Under the pieces are notes generated by a model, which made no database searches, had not been told where the DNA came from, and saw nothing but the letters and a program-made list of their open reading frames with translations. This document shows positions 12,723-36,213 of a DNA stretch of 38,984 nt, piece by piece (position 1 is the stretch's first letter; each line of letters begins with the position of its first letter). Source of the stretch: Myxococcales bacterium (GTDB lineage Bacteria; Myxococcota_A; UBA9042); the NCBI GenBank assembly GCA_009692425.1, contig SHZF01000041.1, positions 1-38,984 of the forward strand. Direction: 5' to 3'. A program made the translations under genes and the position numbers.

Positions 12723-14678
12723 TCACGAGGGCCTCTCGGACTCGCCCGCCGCCGCGGCAAAATCCAACAACCGCAACCCCGCGCCGCGCCACCCCAGCGA
12801 CCCTACCGGCGCCCCCGTGCGGAGTACGTCGAGTCGGTCGCCGTGCCACACCAGTTCATCGCCGTCCGCCAGCAGGCCCACGACTGCCGCGTGGAAGGCG
12901 CGCGCACCGATCCGTTCCGCAACCCCTGCGTCCAGACCCAGATCAGCAAAACCGAGCACGCCACCATAACGGATGCGTTGCCCGCCGCCATCGACTGCCT
13001 CGACGCGGCCTGCGCCGGTCAGCGCGGCCACGCGATCGAATGCCTGCACGAGCACCGGAGTCGCCAGCACGTTCAGGAGCGCCGTTGCCCATTCGGGCTG
13101 GGCCCGGGCCAGTTCGGCGTGCGCATTGCGGGCCTGACGTTCGGCCTCACGGCATCCGAACCGACACGGCCAGAACGAGCCCAACCGCAGGGGCACGACC
13201 GCCGCGTTCTGGAACGGATTGCCGCGCAGCACCGTGCTTGATTCCAAACTGCCCGCGCCGGCCCAGCGCGCGAGCAGCCCGGCGTCGGACTGGTCCGTGG
13301 CGCGCACGTAGGCATCGACGCAGCACGCCGGGTAGCCAAACAACTCCCCCAGGCGCCGCATGGCGCGGTCACGCGCCGCCGCCGGACCGGCCAGTTCTCG
13401 GTCGAGCGCGGCGGCTTCCTCCAGCGTGGCAGAGTTGAGCGCCGCGAACACATGGACCCGCGCTCGCCCGGTCACGCCTTCGAGCGCGGACGCCACCACG
13501 CGTGCGCCGAAGCCCAGACGTTCAAAGGTCTCCACGACGGCGCCGGCCTGCTCCGGTCGTGGCAGTTCGCGCCGCAGCAGCGTGCGCAACCCTGCAGCCA
13601 ATTCGAGGGCCTCGCGATCCGGTGCCGGGCCGTGGCGATGGGCCCAGGTCTTCTCGGCAACCGGCAGGGTGGCGTGCAGGCGACCGCGGGCGGCGGAGCC
13701 GGGGTCGCCGACGAAACCGAGCGCGGCAAAGGGGTCGTCGGGTTGGGCGGCGGCACCTGGTTCCACTTCGAAGCCATCTGGGGCCAGCGTCCTGGGGTCC
13801 AGGGTCAACGGCAGCGCGCGATCGCCCCACGATTGTGCGCACGCGGCGGTCGCGCCCGGGCACACAGACGCCACGGTGCAGGTCGCACACGCTGGCAGCC
13901 GCACGTACCGAGTCGCCTCGCGTGCGACGAGGGCGCGTCCCAGGCGCAGCACGGCGACCACGGCCACTGGGTCGACGAAGGCACACGGCGGCAGTTCCGA
14001 CTGGGGCGCCACGCGCAAAGCCAGTGCGCCCGGCAACGCGGTCGCACGCACCGCAGCGGCGAGTTCGACTGCCAGATCAGGCACATTGAGCGGTTCAAAG
14101 CCGGGCGCGCCGCGCAGGATCGGCCGCGCGATGACTGCTCCCAAGGGCCGGCTTGCGCCGAGGGCGTCCCGTGCCCCGCCCACGATCGCCGCGAGCGCAC
14201 CGCGGTTGGCGGGAGTCAGGGCGACGGCCAACTCGACGTCGATGCCGGCGTCGCACAACTGCCGCACGCCGGCCAACGTACGCGCGGTGCCCCCAGGGTC
14301 GCCCGTGACGGCATCGTTGACGTCGGCGGCAAGCGCATTGCACGCGACGACGGCGGCATCGAGGCCGGCCGCCCGCAATTCCCGCGCGGTGTTGCCCGTT
14401 GCGAGCAGGGTCGCATTCGTTTCCAGCCGCAGTCGGCCAATGCCCGCCCGCTTTGCCGCCGCGACGATGCGCGCCAGCCACGGCTCTCGCGTCGGTTCGG
14501 CGCCGGTAAAGACCACCTCGCGCACGCCCGCCCGCACGGCCCCCTGCACCTGGTCCAATGCGCGCCGGGCCCTCACTTCGGCGGGCTCGCGTTCGGCCCC
14601 GCGCACGACGCAGAACGCACACCCCTGATTGCAGGCGCGGTTCAGGCTGATGGACACCGAGGTGTCGTCCGCCGCCAT
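12723..14678 (-). CDS. Radical SAM protein fused to a DUF483-like cysteine domain
   Basis: A 651-residue protein. The N-terminus is a radical SAM domain: the [4Fe-4S] cysteines are C16, C20 and C23 in CNQGCAFC, and GAEPT (59-63) takes the place of the usual GGEPT. It is followed by an auxiliary-cluster-like set of cysteines (C232, C264, C267, C273, C280; CATCTVASVC), suggestive of a SPASM-type region. A separate C-terminal domain begins about residue 355. It has ELFGYPACCVDAYVRA (C452, C453) and later PFQNAAVVPLRLGSFWPCRF with C505 and C509, which matches my memory of the DUF483 pattern (GYPxCC then PCxxxC). The four cysteines could form a metal site. The start at 14678 is 6 bp after the carbonic anhydrase stop, so the two are probably co-transcribed. 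The reaction is unknown. Confidence 0.75.
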   Translation of the reverse strand: MAADDTSVSISLNRACNQGCAFCVVRGAEREPAEVRARRALDQVQGAVRAGVREVVFTGAEPTREPWLARIVAAAKRAGIGRLRLETNATLLATGNTARELRAAGLDAAVVACNALAADVNDAVTGDPGGTARTLAGVRQLCDAGIDVELAVALTPANRGALAAIVGGARDALGASRPLGAVIARPILRGAPGFEPLNVPDLAVELAAAVRATALPGALALRVAPQSELPPCAFVDPVAVVAVLRLGRALVAREATRYVRLPACATCTVASVCPGATAACAQSWGDRALPLTLDPRTLAPDGFEVEPGAAAQPDDPFAALGFVGDPGSAARGRLHATLPVAEKTWAHRHGPAPDREALELAAGLRTLLRRELPRPEQAGAVVETFERLGFGARVVASALEGVTGRARVHVFAALNSATLEEAAALDRELAGPAAARDRAMRRLGELFGYPACCVDAYVRATDQSDAGLLARWAGAGSLESSTVLRGNPFQNAAVVPLRLGSFWPCRFGCREAERQARNAHAELARAQPEWATALLNVLATPVLVQAFDRVAALTGAGRVEAVDGGGQRIRYGGVLGFADLGLDAGVAERIGARAFHAAVVGLLADGDELVWHGDRLDVLRTGAPVGSLGWRGAGLRLLDFAAAAGESERPS

Positions 14679-14684
14679 GGCTCG

Positions 14685-15398
14685 TCAGACCCGCGTGCGG
14701 AATCGCGTGAGACTTGCGCTCGCCGATTCGAAACGGCCGTCTTCGGGGTCGAACACGTTCAGTTGCAGGGAATAAAGGTCGTAGACCCAGCCGTGCAGTT
14801 CGAGGCGACCGCTTGCAACGGCCTCTGCCACCAGCGGAAAGGTCGCAAGGTTGGAAAGCTGCACGAGCACGTTCCACTCCACCGCCGCGCGAAACTGGGC
14901 GGCCGCGCGCGCCGCCGGGTCGGCCGCATCGGGCGGGTCGTCCTTGGGCGCCGCCGACTCGCTACCCGGCCCGCCGCCAACCGTGCGCGCCCTCTCGACG
15001 GCAGGCACGACGCCGAGCAACCACTCCCGCAAGGACGTCGCTGGCGCGGGCAGGTGGTCGATGCCGTCGAGCACCGCCTGGACGCCGCCGCACCCGTAGT
15101 GCCCGCACACGATGATGTGCGGCACCTTCAAGTGGACGACCGCGTAGTCGAGCGCCGCGCCCACGCTGGCGTCGGCGTGATCGACGGTCGGCACGAGGTT
15201 GGCGACGTTGCGAATCACGAACAAGCGCCCCGGGCTCGATGCCGTCAACACTTCAGGCACCACACGCGAATCGGAGCAGCCGACGTAGAGCGCGTCCGGA
15301 CTCTGGCCGTCGCTGGCGAGCCGGCGCAGGAAATCGATCGTGCCGCCGAGCGCACCCTCATGAAAGCGGCCGTGACCGTGGAGCAATTGTTGGACCAT
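14685..15398 (-). CDS. Beta-class carbonic anhydrase
   Basis: A 237-residue zinc enzyme interconverting CO2 and bicarbonate in the cytoplasm. The zinc-site motifs of the beta class are present: C41 and D43 in GCSDSR, then H100 and C103 in CGHYGCGG, giving a Cys2HisAsp site with the usual Asp-Arg dyad. The start is ATG 15398 with an excellent GGAGG six bases upstream; the frame is open to 15683 but the extension has no recognisable sequence. An insert rich in Gly/Asp/Pro/Ala (about 140-165) makes it slightly longer than usual. It is the first gene of a minus-strand cluster with the radical-SAM gene. Confidence 0.88.
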   Translation of the reverse strand: MVQQLLHGHGRFHEGALGGTIDFLRRLASDGQSPDALYVGCSDSRVVPEVLTASSPGRLFVIRNVANLVPTVDHADASVGAALDYAVVHLKVPHIIVCGHYGCGGVQAVLDGIDHLPAPATSLREWLLGVVPAVERARTVGGGPGSESAAPKDDPPDAADPAARAAAQFRAAVEWNVLVQLSNLATFPLVAEAVASGRLELHGWVYDLYSLQLNVFDPEDGRFESASASLTRFRTRV

Positions 15399-34719: not shown

Positions 34720-36213
34720 ATGCTGCCGCTCTCGCCTGCCCAGATTCCGCCGGCCCAGACTGCGCCTCTCCCGACCCCGGCTGTGCCGGCAGCGCCGCCC
34801 GCTGCGGCCAGCCCGCTCGCCACCGGCCAGCCGCCTGTCATCCCGTTCATTCCGCAGCCCGGCCACCGCGTCAAGCCGCCCGCACCCGCGTCCGCCCTGG
34901 CCCACCATGCCCTGCGCACCGGCCCGTTCTGGCGCGTGATCCCCGCCTGGCACGACATCGACGAAGACACGTTCCTCGATTTTCGCTGGCAGGGCCGCAA
35001 TTCCATCACCAACCCCGACAAGCTGCTCGCTGCGCTCGAAGGGCTGACTTCGCCCGCCTTCATCGCCGATGCCCGTGCCGGCTTCCAGCACTCGCCGATG
35101 AGCGTGCGCGTCACGCCCTACCTGCTCAGCCTGGTCGACTGGTCGAACCCCTACACCGACCCGCTGCGGCGCCAGTTCGTGCCGCTGGGCTCCGAATTGC
35201 GGCCCGACCACCCGGAACTGACGCTCGACAGCCTGCACGAACAGGACGACATGCCGGTGCCGGGCCTGACCCACCGCTACCCGGACAAGGCGCTTTTCCT
35301 CGCGCTCGACACGTGCCCGGTCTACTGCCGCTTTTGCACGCGATCGTACGCGGTCGGGCTCGATACGGAGCTGGTGGACAAGGTCCACATGAACGCCGAC
35401 ACCGCGCGCTGGGAGCAGGTTTTTGCCTACATTGCGACGCGGCCCGAGTTGGAGGACATCGTGCTGTCGGGCGGCGATGTCTACAACCTGCCGGCGCGCC
35501 ACATCCGCCACATCGGCGAGCGCCTGCTCGGCCTGCCCAACATCCGCCGCATCCGCTATGCGACGAAGGGGCCCGCGGTGCTGCCGCAAAAGCTGCTCAC
35601 CGACACGGACTGGACTCAGGCGTTGGTCGATGTCGTCGAACTCGGCCGCCGCTTGCACAAGGACGTGGTGCTGCACACGCACTTCAACCATCCCAATGAA
35701 ATCACGTGGATTACCAAGGCTGCGCTGGATCGGCTGGTCGAGCGCGGCGTCCACGTGCGCAACCAGAGCGTGCTGCAGCGCGGGGTCAACGACACCGTCG
35801 ACACGATGCGCGCGCTCGGGCGGCGGCTCGGGCTCATCAACGTGCACCCGTATTACGTGTACCTGCACGACCTGGTCAAAGGGGTCGAAGACCTGCGCAC
35901 GCCGCTGCACGTCGCGGTCGACATCGAGAAGGCGCTGCGGGGCGCGACGGCGGGCTTCAACACGCCCGTGTTCGTGGCCGACCTGCCCGGCGGTGGTGGC
36001 AAACGCGACGTGCACAGCTACGATTTCTACGACCGCTCGACGGGCATCGCGGTGTACAGCAGCCCGAACGTCGAGCCCGGCAAGCAGTACTTCTGCTATG
36101 ACCCGATCGCGTCGCTGCCGGTGGAGTCGCAAGCGCGCTGGGGAGTCGCGGCGGAGCGGGTGCGGATGCGGGAGGAGGCGGCGGGGCGGGCGCGGGCCCA
36201 AGTCGATCGGTAG
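34720..36213 (+). CDS. kamA: Lysine 2,3-aminomutase-family radical SAM enzyme
   Basis: A 497-residue PLP- and radical-SAM-dependent aminomutase; family members interconvert alpha- and beta-lysine or glutamate. ATG 34720 has GAGG upstream and was preferred over the upstream in-frame ATG at 34612. The first 70 residues are a Pro/Ala-rich extension not seen in standard family members. The radical SAM cysteines are C199, C203 and C206 (CPVYCRFC), followed by SGGDVYNL (the GGE-like SAM contact). The PLP lysine K428 sits in LPGGGGKRD, which supports the aminomutase over PLP-free relatives. TRSYAVG and NQSVLQRGVND are also conserved. Which amino acid it uses cannot be told. Beta-lysine is a known osmolyte and peptide building block. 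A glutamate 2,3-aminomutase is an alternative. Confidence 0.85.
   Translation: MLPLSPAQIPPAQTAPLPTPAVPAAPPAAASPLATGQPPVIPFIPQPGHRVKPPAPASALAHHALRTGPFWRVIPAWHDIDEDTFLDFRWQGRNSITNPDKLLAALEGLTSPAFIADARAGFQHSPMSVRVTPYLLSLVDWSNPYTDPLRRQFVPLGSELRPDHPELTLDSLHEQDDMPVPGLTHRYPDKALFLALDTCPVYCRFCTRSYAVGLDTELVDKVHMNADTARWEQVFAYIATRPELEDIVLSGGDVYNLPARHIRHIGERLLGLPNIRRIRYATKGPAVLPQKLLTDTDWTQALVDVVELGRRLHKDVVLHTHFNHPNEITWITKAALDRLVERGVHVRNQSVLQRGVNDTVDTMRALGRRLGLINVHPYYVYLHDLVKGVEDLRTPLHVAVDIEKALRGATAGFNTPVFVADLPGGGGKRDVHSYDFYDRSTGIAVYSSPNVEPGKQYFCYDPIASLPVESQARWGVAAERVRMREEAAGRARAQVDR

Follow-up and report, generated by a model that had tools for sequence, protein, structure and literature searches.

The window analysed here, a 38,984-nucleotide stretch of Myxococcales DNA, carries an open reading frame of 651 amino acids with an ATG start, in which a radical SAM (rSAM) core is joined through a low-confidence linker to a C-terminal region containing the DUF483 domain (Table 1). 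The Pfam Radical_SAM model matches residues 11-148 of this protein at 63.7 bits against a cut-off of 29.5, and this score together with the CX3CX2C motif places it in the radical SAM superfamily. AlphaFold2 models the whole protein as two confident parts (mean pLDDT 87.6) around a disordered linker at residues 300-313, and the C-terminal region modelled alone reaches a pLDDT of 85 and a pTM of 0.82. Directly upstream, a carbonic anhydrase gene ends 6 nt before the fusion start codon, and the two genes are probably co-transcribed.

Table 1 Features of the rSAM-DUF483 gene and its upstream neighbour in the window
Feature	Position	Strand	Basis
rSAM-DUF483 fusion gene	12723..14678	(-)	ORF; Pfam PF04055 and PF04467; full-length orthologues
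Radical SAM core, about residues 1-190	14109..14678	(-)	PF04055 E=3e-17; Foldseek
CX3CX2C cysteines C16, C20, C23	14610-14633	(-)	Part of rSAM core
Auxiliary (twitch-like) four-Cys site C232, C264, C267, C273	13860..13985	(-)	Conservation; cluster binding inferred
Low-confidence linker, residues 300-317	13728..13781	(-)	AlphaFold2 pLDDT <50 at residues 300-313
DUF483-containing C-terminal region, residues 318-646	12741..13727	(-)	PF04467, hhalign, AlphaFold2
C452-C453 of GYPxCC motif	13320..13325	(-)	Invariant
C505 and C509 of PCxxxC motif	13152..13166	(-)	Invariant in aligned bacterial and archaeal rows
Beta-carbonic anhydrase gene	14685..15398	(-)	PF00484 E=4e-42; longest ORF runs to 15683

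Across a 40-row alignment, C16, C20 and C23 are cysteine in all rSAM-bearing rows, as are C232, C264, C267 and C273 (9/9 such rows), which may hold an auxiliary iron-sulfur cluster; C113, C142 and C280 are not conserved in this alignment. The four cysteines that an earlier note on this DNA had singled out in the C-terminal region (452, 453, 505 and 509) were placed exactly, and are cysteine in 39/39 non-gap rows. Mean column identity in the C-terminal alignment (A4, 38 rows) is 22%, yet the G, Y and P of GYPxCC and all four cysteines are invariant. In the AlphaFold2 model, the CC pair opens one predicted helix and CxxxC directly precedes another, and the start of a helix or the position just before it is a usual place for metal ligands; we infer that these four residues could together hold a metal.

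The same note had described an rSAM protein with auxiliary cysteines and a separate DUF483-like domain, a reading borne out by both Pfam and the alignment, and had suggested comparing the C-terminal region with PF04467 (DUF483). By itself, the Pfam match at residues 441-515 (E=2.3e-4, 21.6 bits) lies just below the gathering cut-off of 25, with further scores of 23.0 bits from hmmscan and 24.4 bits in the genome search, or 26 with neighbours in frame. Profile-profile comparison between the window's type and a canonical DUF483 profile (14 rows, from Bathyarchaeota, Bacillota and relatives) gave an hhalign probability of 99.5% (E=2e-23) over 154 columns with motif aligned on motif, and PF04467 is matched by 14/14 canonical rows and 36/38 rows of the alignment on the window's side. 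This comparison identifies the C-terminal domain as a homologue of PF04467/DUF483 with conserved cysteines. In structural searches, the rSAM half matched SkfB, BlsE and viperin-like enzymes (Foldseek E<=4e-8) and is also similar to DesII. For the C-terminal region, no PDB or viral structural match was better than E=0.02 (best 2guk, E=0.024), sequence searches found no solved structural relatives of the DUF483 domain, and a PqqD-like RiPP recognition element (RRE) was detected neither as a Pfam PqqD match nor as a clear PDB match (best E=0.024).

Four further genomes of the family carry full-length orthologues (38-42% identity); three of the four are MAGs (L078-L080). Genes of this type were thus found in 5/22 genomes of the family. 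Recurrence of the architecture at full length in these four genomes shows that it is neither a chance ORF nor a fusion created by assembly. On a tree built from 87 DUF483 domains, the window protein groups with four others in a clade whose members are all rSAM-fused, and the sister pair of this clade (L081/L082) carries the fusion as well; the fusion is conserved in relatives, a point that the earlier note had proposed testing. The rSAM-fused state requires about six changes on this tree, and related arrangements include the reverse order with DUF483 before rSAM (L089, L035), an rSAM-DUF483 protein in a Nanoarchaeota MAG (L092), an FAD-oxidoreductase-like-DUF483 fusion (L077) and a carbamoyltransferase-DUF483 fusion (L064). 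The last of these, at 1206 aa, lies in an operon with rSAM/SPASM and rSAM-Gfo/Idh genes (L064:4342-12125, L066:7347-15127). A viral contig (L158) encodes DUF483 joined to what we read from its sequence as a methyltransferase, near an rSAM; relatives of the window's domain in phages were reached only through this contig, with none found by tblastn, and no plasmid copies were found.

The rSAM-DUF483 architecture is not new. A 2024 paper on Thermus phages (PMC11437467) describes adjoining rSAM and DUF483 genes in Cumys and phiMa, notes from InterPro that DUF483 can be fused to rSAM or methyltransferase domains, and suggests DNA modification; it also reports cyanobacterial homologues close to genes for deazapurine modification of DNA. 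We observed the pair in phages phiLo and Cumys, in the latter directly after baseplate and tail-fibre genes and with the first cysteine of PCxxxC (the third of the four) replaced by histidine (PHSLRC; L160:4974-5912, plus strand). A further DUF483-like variant, in which HWACxxC replaces PCxxxC (L127, L129, L148 and similar), occurs in Latescibacterota, Krumholzibacteriota, Planctomycetes and similar MAGs, where some of the domains are fused to repeat-rich, exported-looking proteins. A P.CC motif at L191:18444-20000, flagged as DUF483 by a simple pattern, is probably a chance match.

Genes in the neighbourhoods were called with a simple codon-usage caller, and their borders are approximate. Carbonic anhydrase is beside none of the four orthologues, and no other neighbour of the window gene recurs there. 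The earlier note was correct in placing carbonic anhydrase upstream, but because the gene is beside 0/4 orthologues it provides no evidence for a functional cluster; carbonic anhydrase and a phosphatase were both rejected as functional partners on the ground that neither is conserved beside orthologues. Nor was a short substrate peptide, whose presence nearby the earlier note had proposed inspecting, conserved between the window locus and the four orthologue loci: no small ORF is common to the window locus and its orthologues, and the only small ORFs shared among loci of this type are between the syntenic pair L058/L060. Neither a repeat peptide nor another rSAM gene lies near any of the five genes, and HxsA, HxsB and HxsD are not adjacent to the fusion gene in the window or at the four orthologue loci. 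Elsewhere in the window, an ORF at 34720-36213 (plus strand) contains a weak second rSAM match at 35311-35796 (PF04055, 22.5 bits, below the cut-off).

Extending the analysis to DUF483 loci generally, we found 60 other rSAM genes at 43 core-clade loci against 5.6 expected from the density in the window's own genome (42 in 4.94 Mb), an approximately 11-fold excess, and HxsB at 6/43 of these loci against 0.13 expected; 25/43 have no other rSAM gene. The MutL-associated DUF483 clade exhibits no clear rSAM excess (5 vs. 2.2 expected). This separate clade (L093, L104, L106, L114, L125, L147, L153) comprises Bacillota and Bathyarchaeota, and several of its members adjoin genes for MutL-like ATPases and an AYTPGLK-type protein, not rSAMs.

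Scanning all ORFs revealed H-x-S-repeat ORFs inside five DUF483 loci (L085, L107, L119, L145 and L096, the last from Woesearchaeota), and four more (L082, L142, L154, L155) share a contig with a repeat peptide at a distance of about 14-20 kb, the contigs having been matched by length. The bacterial repeat peptide has the HCSH(GSH)nGSW form of NCBIfam HxsA4. Among genomes in few contigs, DUF483 and the repeat lie no more than 18.2 kb apart in 3/5, for which the chance is about 7e-7 with the distance set post hoc and ancestry ignored. Outside the window's class, the repeat peptide is present in 16/20 genomes with DUF483 vs. 10/60 without (Fisher P=5e-7, ancestry ignored), and within family f18 in 8/8 vs. 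2/7; some families, such as f33, have the repeat peptide with no DUF483 match. What is new here is that DUF483 loci are enriched in other rSAM genes, and that many adjoin genes of His-Xaa-Ser (Hxs) RiPP systems, namely those for HGS-repeat precursors, HxsB and HxsD, the Hxs-adjacent loci being from Myxococcota and a DPANN archaeon.

The strongest link of the window's type to Hxs systems is a protein from its sister clade, L082:6569-10888 (plus strand), whose 1439 aa comprise a B12-rSAM-like part, an rSAM of the window's type (46% identity), a further rSAM and DUF483, and which is encoded about 6 kb from HxsD and about 7 kb from HxsB, the cluster containing six additional rSAM genes. Two RiPP clusters in Chromobacterium (L091:5899-14218 and L101) have two DUF483 genes each and also hold, in one gene run, an Os1348-type NHLP precursor, HxsB-like and HxsC-like rSAMs, two aKG-HExxH peptide hydroxylases and a YhhC-like oxygenase. 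Separately, two DPANN archaeal contigs (L092, L096) carry between six and eight rSAM genes within 12-14 kb, and the second also encodes HxsB, HxsD and two HxS-repeat ORFs. At L226:10059-10751 (plus strand) we observed an HxsA4-type peptide of unusual length, containing about 50 HGS repeats.

The window's own genome encodes one HxsA4 peptide (contig 45, 108736-109044; 92 bits against a cut-off of 55) and, on contig 32, one HxsB together with HxsD, an HxsD-like gene and further rSAM genes. The fusion gene, HxsA4 and HxsB are thus on separate contigs, and since the Hxs parts of this genome are themselves dispersed, the fact that no peptide adjoins the window gene is uninformative. HxsA4 and HxsB are nearly universal in the family and genes of the window's type were found in 5/22 genomes; the window protein is therefore no core HxsA4 maturase, and could at most carry out an accessory step on HxsA4 or act on another target. 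It also belongs to neither HxsC (28.5 vs. 267.9 bits) nor HxsC4 (54.6 vs. 500 bits). HxsA4 is a possible substrate in this genome, and we consider it an unlikely one. The genome has a second DUF483 gene (L062:9331-10452, minus strand), with its gene order kept in L072 and L074.

Taken as a whole, these observations are compatible with a peptide-modifying or MoaA-like rSAM enzyme with one auxiliary site, in which DUF483 is a metal-stabilised module for docking the substrate or partner enzymes, a reading to which we give slightly less than even weight. The rSAM half would make a 5'-deoxyadenosyl radical and alter a side chain of a ribosomally synthesised peptide or introduce a crosslink into it, and the DUF483 domain, stabilised by a metal on its four cysteines, would dock the substrate peptide or partner enzymes. 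Such a docking role would explain why DUF483 is fused to or found beside chemically different tailoring enzymes. Given that rSAM and RiPP genes cluster with those for DUF483, the maturase or modification role suggested by the earlier note is plausible, but no conserved peptide lies beside genes of the window's type, and for the window protein itself a peptide substrate is about evenly balanced against other targets. A broader and more doubtful proposal is that DUF483 serves as a metal-stabilised recognition module, a counterpart of the RRE, for HxS-repeat and related peptides in Bacteria, Archaea and phages, with the window enzyme a free-standing member whose peptide is encoded elsewhere.

If peptides are not the target, the substrate might instead be a small molecule or cell-surface sugar made or altered by a pathway in which DUF483 has a catalytic or a structural role. 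BlsE and DesII are among the enzymes that the rSAM half resembles, the carbamoyltransferase-DUF483 protein shares an operon with an rSAM/SPASM protein and a double rSAM-Gfo/Idh protein (G005, G013), and the second DUF483 gene of the window's genome adjoins a conserved set resembling exopolysaccharide export genes. Genes of the window's own type have no such neighbours, however, and their sister clade includes the L082 protein in its Hxs cluster, and we regard this explanation as rather unlikely.

Modification of nucleic acid, an example being the unusual base suggested for DNA of Thermus phages (PMC11437467), draws on the pair in Cumys and phiMa and on the cyanobacterial homologues near deazapurine DNA-modification genes in that report, and on the pair in phiLo and Cumys and the DUF483-methyltransferase near an rSAM in L158 here. 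The position of the Cumys pair after baseplate and tail-fibre genes would fit modification of a tail protein equally well, though, and the RiPP-specific neighbours of DUF483 (HxsA4, HxsB, HxsD, NHLP precursor, HExxH hydroxylase) point to peptides, making a nucleic-acid target improbable. We attach similarly little probability to DUF483 acting as an iron-sulfur domain, for electron transfer or as a second catalytic site, instead of as a docking module. Several rSAM enzymes do use extra clusters, and the four invariant cysteines would suit one, but DUF483 also occurs standalone or fused to non-redox carbamoyltransferase and methyltransferase domains, and the histidine in place of the third cysteine in Cumys fits zinc better than 4Fe-4S.

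DUF483 has almost no literature, a full-text search finding a single paper that discusses it (PMC11437467), and its tie to multi-rSAM and Hxs RiPP clusters provides concrete substrate candidates for the docking reading. Many of these clusters pack between five and eight rSAM genes into 12-20 kb, in several cases close to an HGS-repeat precursor, and the literature search found no description of their product; a domain that possibly organises their tailoring enzymes would offer a handle on an unexplored peptide class.

Among known systems, the sactipeptide maturase SkfB (PDB 6efn) is the solved structure that best matches the rSAM half, by sequence as well as by fold, at about 18% identity and with the match limited to that half and absent from the DUF483 region. 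With His-Xaa-Ser systems (HxsA4, HxsB, HxsC, HxsD; NCBIfam), in whose clusters relatives of the window's domain sit, the window's genome shares HxsA4, HxsB and HxsD, but the fusion gene is not beside them. The Thermus phages Cumys and phiMa pair rSAM with DUF483 as the window protein does, but as separate genes. Canonical PF04467 members share the GYPxCC and PCxxxC motifs with the window's domain, and whereas that clade is standalone, found in Bacillota and archaea and often beside MutL-like genes, the domain described here is fused to a radical SAM enzyme.
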